64,000 nt of DNA from Adlercreutzia faecimuris (GTDB lineage: Bacteria; Actinomycetota; Coriobacteriia; Coriobacteriales; Eggerthellaceae). The DNA is taken from positions 1 to 64,000 of the forward strand of contig NZ_JAJMLW010000004.1 in NCBI RefSeq assembly GCF_022669055.1, given 5' to 3'. This document shows positions 27,026 to 48,582 of the stretch, piece after piece (the first letter of the stretch is position 1; each line of letters begins with the position of its first letter). The notes under the pieces are model-generated. The model was not told where the DNA came from. It ran no database searches and saw only the letters and a list, made by a program, of their open reading frames with translations. The translations under genes were made by a program, and so were the position numbers.

Positions 27026-27304
27026 ATGTGCTTTAGACCTGCTGACACCGGCGCCTCCGCCGGTCCCGCCAAGTGCCCCGAGTGCGGCAAGACCATCCAG
27101 GCCATGGGCGGCATCGAGCTGAAGAGCTGCCCGTTCTGCAAGTGCGACTTCACGCCGTACCTGAACGGGTCCAAGCCGCTGCCCAACGGCGCGCCGGCCG
27201 CTCCGGCCGCGCCGGGCGCCCCCGGAGCCCCCAAGGCTCCCGGCGCCCCGGGTGCTCCCGCGGCCCCGGCCGCGCCTGCCGCGCCCAAGGCCCCCGGCGC
27301 CTAA
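27026..27304 (+). CDS. Small zinc-ribbon protein with Pro/Ala/Gly tail (MCFRPAD family, copy 1)
   Basis: A 92-residue protein. It begins MCFRPADTG, then has two Cys pairs, CPECGKTIQAMGG and CPFCKCDFTPYL, which should bind one zinc ion. The last ~45 residues are a collagen-like run of GAP/APxAP repeats with no hydrophobic segment. The first 55 residues are nearly identical to the protein at 44611-44862, which also stands beside a molybdoenzyme. TGAGGAG precedes ATG 27026. Function unknown; a metal-handling or assembly accessory is a guess from context. Confidence 0.85.
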   Translation: MCFRPADTGASAGPAKCPECGKTIQAMGGIELKSCPFCKCDFTPYLNGSKPLPNGAPAAPAAPGAPGAPKAPGAPGAPAAPAAPAAPKAPGA

Positions 27305-44610: not shown

Positions 44611-44862
44611 ATGTGCTTTAGACCTGCTGACGCCTCTGCGGGCTCGGGCGTGAACCAGTGCCCCGAGTGCGGCAAGACCATCCAGGCCATGGGCGGCATC
44701 ACGCTCAAGTCCTGCCCGTTCTGCAAGTGCGACTTCACCCCCTACCTCGACGGCACCAAGCCGCTGCCCAACGCGGCCCCCGGCGCGCCCGCGGCTCCCG
44801 CGGCCCCCGGCGCCCCGAAGGCCCCCGGCGCCCCGAAGCCGCCGGCGGCCCCCGGCCAGTAG
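44611..44862 (+). CDS. Small zinc-ribbon protein with Pro/Ala/Gly tail (MCFRPAD family, copy 2)
   Basis: An 83-residue paralogue of the protein at 27026-27304. MCFRPADAS is followed by CPECGKTIQAMGG and CPFCKCDFTPYL (two Cys pairs, one zinc site expected) and a Pro/Ala/Gly tail of ~33 residues. AAAGGAGG before ATG 44611 gives a strong start. It is the first gene after the LuxR-divergent promoter and precedes the molybdoenzyme large subunit by 156 bases. Two copies, each beside a different molybdoenzyme, suggest an accessory role such as assembly, metal handling or scaffolding; this is inference. Confidence 0.85.
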   Translation: MCFRPADASAGSGVNQCPECGKTIQAMGGITLKSCPFCKCDFTPYLDGTKPLPNAAPGAPAAPAAPGAPKAPGAPKPPAAPGQ

Positions 44863-45018: not shown

Positions 45019-47331
45019 ATGGCATACGGTAAACAGTGGCAAACCGTAATGGAGGACGGCACCGTCGTCACTCGCTCCAACACCTGGTCGCCTCCGGGAT
45101 CCCACCCCGTGGGGTACGGCGTCAAGGTCGTGACCAAGGACGGCGAGCTGATCCGCATCGAGGGCGATGACGACAACCCGATCACCACCGGTCGCGTGAA
45201 CGCCATGAACCTCGCCCTGCGCGAGTACACCTACGCCCCCGAGCGCATCATCTACCCGATGAAGCGCGCCTACGAGGACCGTGGCAAGGACAAGTGGGTC
45301 CGCACCACCTGGGACGAGGCCATGGACACCATCTGCGAGAAGGTGCGCTACTTCCAGGAGACCTACGGCCCCGAGTCCATCGTCTGCTTCGGCGGCACCG
45401 GCCGCGAGGCGTGCATCTTCTACTACGCCCTGACGTTCTCGGTGCTGCAGTCCCCCAACTGCTGCTACACGCAGTCCGGCTGGTCCTGCTACGGCCCCCG
45501 CTGCTCCATCTCCGACTACGTGCTGGGCGCGGGCTACCCCGAGCTCGACTACGCCGGCCACCTGCCGGGCAGCTACGACGACCCCCGCTACACCCTGTCC
45601 AAGTGGGTCGTGGTCTGGGGCAAGGAGCCCCTGCCCTCCAACGGCGACGGCTTCTTCGGCCACTGCCTCGTCGACATGATGAAGCGCGGCACCAAGATCA
45701 TCTCCATCGACCCCCGCATCACCTGGGTCGGCGCCCATAACGGCAACATCAACCTGCAGGTCCGCCCGCAGACCGACACCGCCCTGGCCCTCGGCATCAT
45801 GAACCTGATGTTCGAGACCGGCGAGTACGACCACGAGTTCGCCGAGAACTGGATCTACGGCCTCGACGAGATCAAGGCCCGCGCCGCCGAGTACCCGGTG
45901 GAGAAGGTCTCCGAGATCACCACCGTCCCGGTCGAGGACATCAAGCGCGTCGCGCACATCATCGGCACCGAGCGCCCGATCGGCTGGGCCTGGGGCCTGG
46001 CCTTCGACCAGAACAAGAACGGCGTGCAGCTGTCCCAGGCGTTCATCGTGCTGGCGGCCCTGGCCGGCTCGATCGACCGTCCCGGCGGCCTGACCCTCGG
46101 CCCGCCGTCCGCCCTGCTGGGCAAGTGGCGCATGGAGCAGCGCGGCGCCATGGACGACGAGGTGTGGTCCAAGCGCATCGGCGCCGCGGCGTGGCCGGGC
46201 CTGTCCACCGGCATGGCCACCACCCAGCCCGACGAGACCCTCAACACCATGGAGACCGACGAGCCCTACGCCCTGAAGATGGGCTGGTTCAACAGCTCCA
46301 ACTTCCTGACCCCCACCTGCTCGGCCCAGCCCAAGCGCTGGCACAAGGCCCTGCAGAAGCTGGAGTTCGTCGTGGTGCAGGACATCACCATGACCCCGAC
46401 CGCCATGGCCGTCGGCGACTACTTCCTGCCCATGGCCACCTGGGCCGAGCATGACGGCATCGTGCTCACCCACTACGGCCGCAACACCGTGTTCATGGGC
46501 CCCATGAACAAGGCCCTCACCGTCGGCGAGTGCAAGTCCGACGTGGAGATCTGCCTCATGTTCGGCCAGCGCCTGAACCCCAGCTGGTGGCCGTGGTACA
46601 AGCCGGCCGACGGCAAGTCCCTCGACCTCGAGGCCCTGCAGACCGCCGTGGAGGACTTCTACAGCGACCAGCTCAAGGAGCTCGGCTTCGACTGGAAGGG
46701 CTTCCAGGAGCTCGGCCTGTACCAGCCCGGCGCCCACGGCTTCGAGTACGAGAAGTACGAGAAGGGCCTGCTGCGCTTCGACGGCCAGCCCGGCTTCAAC
46801 ACCATCACCGGCCAGATCGAGGCCTACTCGATCCTCTACGAATCCTGGGGCGAGGATCCGCTGCCCTACTACGAGGAGCCGAACTACAGCCCGATCAGCA
46901 AGCCCGACTTCGCCGGCCAGTACCCGCTCATCACCACGTCCGGCTCGCGCCGCTACAGCTCCTTCCACTCCGAGCATCGCCAGGTGCCCTCGCTGCGCCA
47001 GATCGATCCGTGGCCGTGGGTGCAGATCAACCCCGAGACCGCCAAGGAGTACGGCATCACCGACGGCGACTGGGTCGAGGTCTACAACATGTTCGGCGAG
47101 GCTCGTTTCAAGGCGGAGATCACCCCGGTCATGAAGCCCGGCATCCTGAACTGCGCCCATGGCTGGTGGTTCCCCGAGCAGGACGGCGAGGAGCCCAACC
47201 TGTTCGGCGTCTGGAAGTCGAACTTCAACAGCCTCGTGCCGCACTTCAACGTTGGCAAGCTCGGCTTCGGCGCGCCGTATAAGGGCGTCATGTGCAACGT
47301 CCGTCGTGTCCGCAGCCTCGACCAGGACTAA
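45019..47331 (+). CDS. Molybdopterin (bis-MGD) enzyme large subunit lacking the FS0 Fe-S cysteines
   Basis: A 770-residue member of the DMSO reductase family. The usual N-terminal [4Fe-4S] region is recognisable (TWSPPGSHPVGYGVKVVTKDG, then GRVNAMNLALREYTYAPERI) but its cysteines are replaced, for example by S28, Y33 and N61; no Cys occurs before C106. Candidate metal-ligand cysteines C148, C149, C157 and C162 lie in SPNCCYTQSGWSCYGPRC. Cofactor motifs IISIDPRITWVGAHNGNI and the C-terminal DPWPWVQINPETAKEYGITDGD are intact. No Tat signal, so cytoplasmic. Loss of the cluster suggests chemistry without electron transfer, as in acetylene hydratase or transhydroxylase relatives, or a direct redox partner. 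AAGGAAAG precedes ATG 45019. Confidence 0.88.
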   Translation: MAYGKQWQTVMEDGTVVTRSNTWSPPGSHPVGYGVKVVTKDGELIRIEGDDDNPITTGRVNAMNLALREYTYAPERIIYPMKRAYEDRGKDKWVRTTWDEAMDTICEKVRYFQETYGPESIVCFGGTGREACIFYYALTFSVLQSPNCCYTQSGWSCYGPRCSISDYVLGAGYPELDYAGHLPGSYDDPRYTLSKWVVVWGKEPLPSNGDGFFGHCLVDMMKRGTKIISIDPRITWVGAHNGNINLQVRPQTDTALALGIMNLMFETGEYDHEFAENWIYGLDEIKARAAEYPVEKVSEITTVPVEDIKRVAHIIGTERPIGWAWGLAFDQNKNGVQLSQAFIVLAALAGSIDRPGGLTLGPPSALLGKWRMEQRGAMDDEVWSKRIGAAAWPGLSTGMATTQPDETLNTMETDEPYALKMGWFNSSNFLTPTCSAQPKRWHKALQKLEFVVVQDITMTPTAMAVGDYFLPMATWAEHDGIVLTHYGRNTVFMGPMNKALTVGECKSDVEICLMFGQRLNPSWWPWYKPADGKSLDLEALQTAVEDFYSDQLKELGFDWKGFQELGLYQPGAHGFEYEKYEKGLLRFDGQPGFNTITGQIEAYSILYESWGEDPLPYYEEPNYSPISKPDFAGQYPLITTSGSRRYSSFHSEHRQVPSLRQIDPWPWVQINPETAKEYGITDGDWVEVYNMFGEARFKAEITPVMKPGILNCAHGWWFPEQDGEEPNLFGVWKSNFNSLVPHFNVGKLGFGAPYKGVMCNVRRVRSLDQD

Positions 47332-47351
47332 CTCGAAAGGTAGTGACACAC

Positions 47352-47711
47352 ATGGCAGATCAGAAATACGCTTTGCTCGTTGACTACACCTACTTCTCCG
47401 GCAACCATGCCGCCGAGATCGCCTGCAAGGAGGAGCTCGGCCTGCCGATCGACCAGTTCGGCATCAAGGAGGTCGAGGTCGGCCCGTTCAAGAAGGGCGA
47501 GGGCAACGACGGCGACGCCTGGGAGTGGTTCTACATCCCCTGCCCGACGTCCATCTTCTCCGACCACTGGGGCACGGGCGGCGACAAGGCCGGCCAGCGT
47601 CCCCTGGCGGTCCAGGTCGAGGAGTCCGCGTCCATGTACTACGGCACCCTTGAGGAGATGCAGGCCAAGATGGCGGAGTTCGACCGCCCGATGGTCCTGT
47701 TCCAGCTGTAG
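47352..47711 (+). CDS. Degenerate ferredoxin-type small subunit that has lost its cluster cysteines
   Basis: A 119-residue protein 20 bases after the large subunit gene. Its N-terminus YALLVDYTYFSGNHAAEIAC aligns without gaps to YGFFFDMNRCYACQACSIAC of the Fe-S subunit at 24643-25386: C13, C16 and C19 there are F15, N18 and A21 here; only C25 remains. Later AGQRPLAVQVEESASMYYGT aligns with EGQQPLCTLSCPLRAFDFGP, with A86 and E90 in place of two more cysteines. The middle part holding two clusters is shortened, with C64 the only other Cys. It probably still binds the large subunit as a structural partner. GAAAGG lies upstream. Confidence 0.85.
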   Translation: MADQKYALLVDYTYFSGNHAAEIACKEELGLPIDQFGIKEVEVGPFKKGEGNDGDAWEWFYIPCPTSIFSDHWGTGGDKAGQRPLAVQVEESASMYYGTLEEMQAKMAEFDRPMVLFQL

Positions 47712-48255: not shown

Positions 48256-48582
48256 ATGGCGACGGAAGAGGAGATCAGGGCCGAGATCGAGAGGCTCGGG
48301 CGCCTGACCGAGGAGCAGGAGGACATCCTGTACAACATCTCGCTCAAGCAGGACGAGCTGGGCCGCCAGCCCACCAACCTGCTGCTGGAGCAGATCGAGG
48401 GCAGCGACGTCTACGGGCCCCTGATCGAACGGGAGTACCTTACCTACGAGGTGTTCAACCACGGCGGGCGGCACGAGATAGCGAGCCTGTACGTCACGCT
48501 GAAGGGGATGCGCTACTGCATTCTGTTCAGCGACGAGCTGTCGCCGCGCCGCAAGCTGAACCCCGCCGGCGCGCCCTGGTAG
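48256..48582 (+). CDS. Small protein of unknown function
   Basis: A 108-residue soluble protein. Residues 1-40 are a charged helix (ATEEEIRAEIERLGRLTEEQ) that could form a coiled coil; the rest is predicted beta-rich (YLTYEVFNHGGRHEIASLYV, MRYCILFSDELSP). Single Cys, no metal motif. GGAGG precedes ATG 48256. It lies behind the terminator of the molybdoenzyme module in the same orientation, so it may be independent. No family recognised. Confidence 0.75.
   Translation: MATEEEIRAEIERLGRLTEEQEDILYNISLKQDELGRQPTNLLLEQIEGSDVYGPLIEREYLTYEVFNHGGRHEIASLYVTLKGMRYCILFSDELSPRRKLNPAGAPW

Follow-up and report, generated by a model that had tools for sequence, protein, structure and literature searches.

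How does a molybdenum enzyme exchange electrons if neither of its subunits retains the ligands for Fe–S clusters? This question is raised by two adjacent genes in the window, i.e., the analysed stretch of 64,000 nucleotides of the Adlercreutzia faecimuris genome, which encode a catalytic bis-MGD subunit (P0001) and a small subunit (P0002). From the letters alone, a sequence-only reading had offered either a hydratase, transhydroxylase or isomerase-like reaction or a new electron route.

Table 1 Features of the locus (positions in the window)
Feature	Position	Strand	Length	Remarks
P0008	42584..44221	-	545 aa	membrane LuxR-type regulator with GerE domain; HcdR/Unk-9R counterpart
Zinc-ribbon-like protein	44611..44862	+		small; CPEC...CPFC; family-wide accessory
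P0001	45019..47331	+	770 aa	catalytic bis-MGD subunit; probable Gp Hcdh orthologue
Lost FS0 site of P0001	45100..45210	+		codons for S28, Y33, N61, N64
C157 of P0001	45487..45489	+		predicted Mo ligand, retained; invariant in 63/63 family members counted
P0002	47352..47711	+	119 aa	small subunit; probably cluster-less relative of PsrB/DmsB-type ferredoxin subunits
Lost cluster ligands of P0002	47394..47621	+		F15, N18, A21, F69, G74, A86, E90
P0007	47803..48078	+	91 aa	cassette-specific; no known family
108-aa protein	48256..48582	+	108 aa	cassette-specific; no known family

Cluster ligands of the two subunits

The gene for P0002 lies downstream of that for P0001, separated by 20 bases. P0001 matches the Pfam families Molybdopterin and Molydop_binding, with Molybdop_Fe4S4 remaining under its cut-off. 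Its structural model is nearest to acetylene hydratase (2e7z; TM 0.84/0.88), and C157 aligns with the metal-ligand Cys region of the latter. In case of P0002, the AlphaFold model (pLDDT 94) has the B chain of PsrB as top PDB fold match (2vpw_B; prob 1.00, E 2.8e-3, TMq 0.60), a predicted resemblance consistent with a scaffold role.

Substitution of the N-terminal cluster site of P0001 (S28, Y33, N61) and absence of any Cys ahead of C106 had been described correctly before; N64 represents a fourth substituted position. By alignment, positions 28, 33 and 61 fall on the cluster Cys of acetylene hydratase, position 64 being extra, and all four read S, Y, N and N in 33 of 33 P0001 orthologues. Likewise, the substitutions F15, N18, A21, A86 and E90 reported for P0002 are accurate, and F69 as well as (by alignment) G74 are two further losses, leaving C25 as the sole retained ligand out of eight. 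The P0002 orthologues (71 loci, 41 distinct sequences) uniformly lack the lost ligands, displaying F/Y, N, A, F, G, A and E/D at these positions. P0003 (24643-25386), on which the gap-free alignment of P0002 had been based, gave no significant BLASTP match to P0002; it is too distant and was replaced as comparator by true same-genome paralogues.

The latter belong to a family with more than 20 large and about 20 small subunits in A. faecimuris, in which P0001/P0002 form the only pair without cluster ligands. An FS0-like four-ligand site is present in 21 of 21 paralogous large subunits (Cys in 19 and Asp in 2 at position 28, followed by C33, C61 and C64), and eight Cys are present in 20 of 20 paralogous small subunits sharing roughly 32–44 % identity with P0002; across paralogue and sister-clade small subunits the count is 29 of 29. 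The same holds for Gordonibacter sp. 28C, where 25 other family members carry FS0-like and eight-Cys motifs, both of which are missing from the P0001/P0002 orthologue alone. Since all paralogues keep their ligands, the loss is derived. According to a review, the FS0 motif is absent from Gordonibacter catalytic subunits (PMC11574389); as a general Gordonibacter-type trait this was rejected, since the paralogues carry a shifted motif (C/D28, C33, C61, C64), which may explain the statement. One paralogous large subunit with FS0-like Cys (L012:1501-3741; G000:C1:694521-696761) has no small-subunit gene that could be found within 1.5 kb.

Loss of the ligands suggests that P0001/P0002 contain no Fe–S cluster. 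That a cluster is still held by atypical residues (Asn, Glu, His or C25) might be considered, as C25 occurs in almost all P0002 orthologues and H19 and E/D90 are conserved. However, with one of eight ligand Cys left, C25 missing as well from a homologue of 62 % identity (L163) and the large-subunit ligands replaced by S, Y, N and N, such binding is highly unlikely.

Conservation and order of the losses

Orthologues of P0002 are present in 38 of 138 Eggerthellaceae genomes (41 genomes matched at E<=1e-20, three of which contained paralogues of 44–47 % identity only and were left out) and in five sampled genomes from other families of the same order, in line with the supposed co-occurrence of the pair across Coriobacteriia. 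Orthologues and paralogues are well separated, with a median identity of 93 % versus 33 % for the small and 91 % versus 42 % for the large subunit. The residues replacing the lost ligands are invariant or nearly so across orthologues. Pairwise dN/dS (with dS uncorrected for codon bias) ranges from 0.01 to 0.15 for the small subunit (0.23 in one pair with very low dS) and from 0.04 to 0.21 for the large subunit. Judged from these sequence comparisons, the ligand loss is fixed in the orthologues and under purifying selection, as the earlier argument for selection rather than decay had it. Sequencing error and pseudogene formation were dismissed, since the same substitutions recur in dozens of independent assemblies and dN/dS is low. 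Genome G085 contains a second, more divergent cluster-less copy beside the main one (L132; 78 % in the large, 89 % in the small subunit).

The nearest sister clade (L123, L124, L126 and L128 from genomes G060, G086, G085 and G040, respectively) comprises large subunits of about 56 % identity, which read E28, W33, N61 and G/M64 and hence have no FS0, and small subunits with all eight Cys kept. In a tree from a short search, with SH-aLRT values of 99–100 as support in place of bootstrap, this clade adjoins the orthogroup within the cluster-bearing paralogues. Since an FS0-less clade with an eight-Cys small subunit adjoins the orthogroup, the FS0 site was lost before the small-subunit ligands. 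Thus, the previously proposed parallel loss is right in that both subunits are affected, but its timing was stepwise. The layout of the sister clade (FS0-less large, Fe–S small subunit) is that of pyrogallol-phloroglucinol transhydroxylase, and these enzymes could be non-redox.

Probable assignment to the hydrocaffeic acid dehydroxylase Gp Hcdh

Hydrocaffeic acid, derived from coffee and vegetables, is dehydroxylated by a gut-bacterial enzyme. In the parts of the study by Bae et al. considered here (PMC11585353), Unk-9 is Gp Hcdh, the enzyme from Gordonibacter pamelaeae, which (i) consists of a 770-aa catalytic and an accessory subunit, (ii) occurs in Gordonibacter, P. hongkongensis, E. isourolithinifaciens and Raoultibacter, (iii) is accompanied by a LuxR regulator (Unk-9R) with 44 % identity and 60 % similarity to HcdR of E. 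lenta, whose Hcdh has a published length of 1193 aa, (iv) reduces hydrocaffeic acid with methyl viologen/dithionite, (v) was purified under air and contains one Mo per protein by ICP-MS, and (vi) upon deletion leaves cells devoid of activity and of hydrocaffeic-acid-dependent ATP production.

Orthologues of P0001 with 770 aa and 92.6–94 % identity are present in Gordonibacter, Paraeggerthella (P. hongkongensis) and Raoultibacter (the host identified being R. timonensis), and E. isourolithinifaciens carries an orthologue as well; as in Gp Hcdh, the 770-aa catalytic subunit adjoins a small accessory subunit. In E. lenta (genome taken to be that of strain DSM 2243), about 7 kb separate the gene of the best LuxR match from that of a Tat-type Mo subunit, whose length is exactly 1193 aa. 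The Gordonibacter LuxR protein beside the orthologous cassette shares 45 % identity and 61 % similarity with this E. lenta LuxR protein, close to the published 44 % and 60 %. P0008 is the reciprocal best match of the E. lenta protein (39 % identity, 56 % similarity) and shares 43–45 % identity with the Gordonibacter LuxR protein. In a search with HcdR at E<=1e-40, nine of ten genomes gave the cassette LuxR as sole match, while the remaining one gave two matches, of which the cassette LuxR was the better; P0008 is the single match in A. faecimuris. Host range, exact 770-aa length and the reciprocal-best relation of the regulator to HcdR thus identify the P0001/P0002 group as Gp Hcdh, an assignment for which the evidence is strong but indirect. 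Tree, alignment and fold place the group among two-subunit enzymes related to acetylene hydratase, as expected for Gordonibacter-type catechol dehydroxylases. Most likely, therefore, P0001/P0002 represent a reductase that is already known, and their substrate is probably hydrocaffeic acid, as published for Gp Hcdh.

This assignment bears on the reaction type. A bis-MGD enzyme of the hydratase, transhydroxylase or isomerase type, being non-redox, would need no electrons, rendering clusters dispensable, and would agree with the lack of a recognisable Fe–S path in P0001/P0002, with acetylene hydratase as best solved relative and with the transhydroxylase large subunit aligning only past the FS0 region. 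Yet the viologen-dependent dehydroxylation by Gp Hcdh and its support of ATP production, as given in the cited parts of PMC11585353, run against such a reaction, which we regard as very improbable. The new electron route is then the remaining option of the sequence-only reading.

Of the inducible system which LuxR and zinc-ribbon proteins had been suggested to complete, control of the locus by LuxR stands. The zinc-ribbon gene is conserved upstream of many orthologues, but its product has about a dozen matches in the A. faecimuris genome, many beside other molybdoenzyme loci, and was therefore discarded as specific partner. A zinc-ribbon-like protein at 27026-27250 is 83 % identical to that of the cassette. 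The gene adjoining that for P0008 (38358-42380, minus strand) encodes a 1340-aa protein resembling by eye activator/subunit proteins of 2-hydroxyacyl-CoA dehydratases.

Electron supply and comparison with known systems

Taken as a whole, the locus is best explained by a Gp Hcdh orthologue which lost its clusters stepwise and became a cluster-less reductase with Mo re-reduced by an external donor, a reading we consider quite probable. The ancestor would have possessed an FS0-like cluster in the large and two [4Fe–4S] clusters in the small subunit; FS0 would have been lost first and both small-subunit clusters next, upon which the cluster-less state became fixed. The present enzyme would be a cytoplasmic two-subunit bis-MGD reductase, induced via the membrane LuxR regulator. 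It would reduce hydrocaffeic acid with two electrons and thereby eliminate the para-hydroxyl group. As such a reductase has cluster ligands in neither subunit, Mo must be re-reduced by something other than an own Fe–S relay. The preferred reading is that electrons enter directly at Mo; conceivable donors are NAD(P)H, a reduced flavin and a redox protein, and the small subunit would serve as cofactor-free ferredoxin-fold scaffold or donor-docking surface. DMSO reductases without Fe–S clusters and the NADPH-driven biotin sulfoxide reductase provide precedents for direct re-reduction of Mo.

Alternatively, a partner acting in trans (P0007, the 108-aa protein, a ferredoxin or a flavodoxin) could dock on the small subunit and feed Mo at short range, the cassette-specific proteins being part of the new route or of maturation. 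The P0007 gene is found downstream of nearly all orthologues and the 108-aa gene in most orthologous cassettes; neither has a paralogue that could be found in the A. faecimuris genome, and distant P0007 copies also adjoin the FS0-less sister clade. However, both proteins are without family match or Cys motifs, the 108-aa protein was detected neither beside the sister clade nor beside the basal homologue L163, and gene association does not equal interaction. A role of the two proteins in electron donation or maturation may be proposed on these grounds, while a trans-acting partner appears possible but rather doubtful. A partner protein may also supply a cluster to P0001/P0002.

With similar reserve, one may tentatively picture a highly transcribed respiratory reductase of the human gut in which the whole Fe–S relay was replaced by a new electron route, with the cofactor-free ex-ferredoxin subunit as docking platform and with participation of P0007 and/or the 108-aa protein, possibly sparing iron in the face of an abundant iron-chelating catechol. 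That an enzyme made at very high levels would profit from saving iron when its catechol substrate binds this metal is speculative.

While the enzyme Gp Hcdh is known, the loss of all recognisable Fe–S ligand sets from both subunits in two steps appears to be new; no prior mention of it was found in the main texts of the literature searched. If the orthologues are indeed cluster-free, models of polyphenol respiration in gut Actinobacteria need another electron route, and the series from full via FS0-less to cluster-less enzymes could serve as a natural experiment revealing under which circumstances molybdoenzymes are able to shed their wiring.

Compared to known systems, P0001/P0002 agree with Gp Hcdh in the 770-aa catalytic subunit, the small accessory subunit, the HcdR-closest LuxR protein and the host genera; nothing essential differs, the considered parts of PMC11585353 making no mention of Fe–S ligand loss. 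The Gordonibacter-type catechol dehydroxylases (Dodh, Cldh, Eadh1/2) resemble the pair in having two cytoplasmic subunits of similar length, the fold of the family and control by LuxR. Their small subunits are described as Fe–S-binding (PMC11887054, PMC12771579), contrasting the loss of seven of eight ligands in P0002 and its orthologues, and the 25 other family members of strain 28C, counted as a group, keep the motifs. Hcdh of E. lenta has the same (published) reaction and a related regulator, but is Tat-exported, possesses Fe–S and membrane subunits and shares very low identity with P0001. Acetylene hydratase is closest in fold and in the Cys metal-ligand region, but retains the FS0 Cys set replaced in P0001, catalyses non-redox hydration and has no small subunit. 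Pyrogallol-phloroglucinol transhydroxylase combines an FS0-less large with an Fe–S small subunit, whereas P0002 is devoid of ligands. DMSO, TMAO and biotin sulfoxide reductases without Fe–S clusters likewise employ bis-MGD and no Fe–S relay, but are single-subunit enzymes of another clade without a vestigial ferredoxin subunit.
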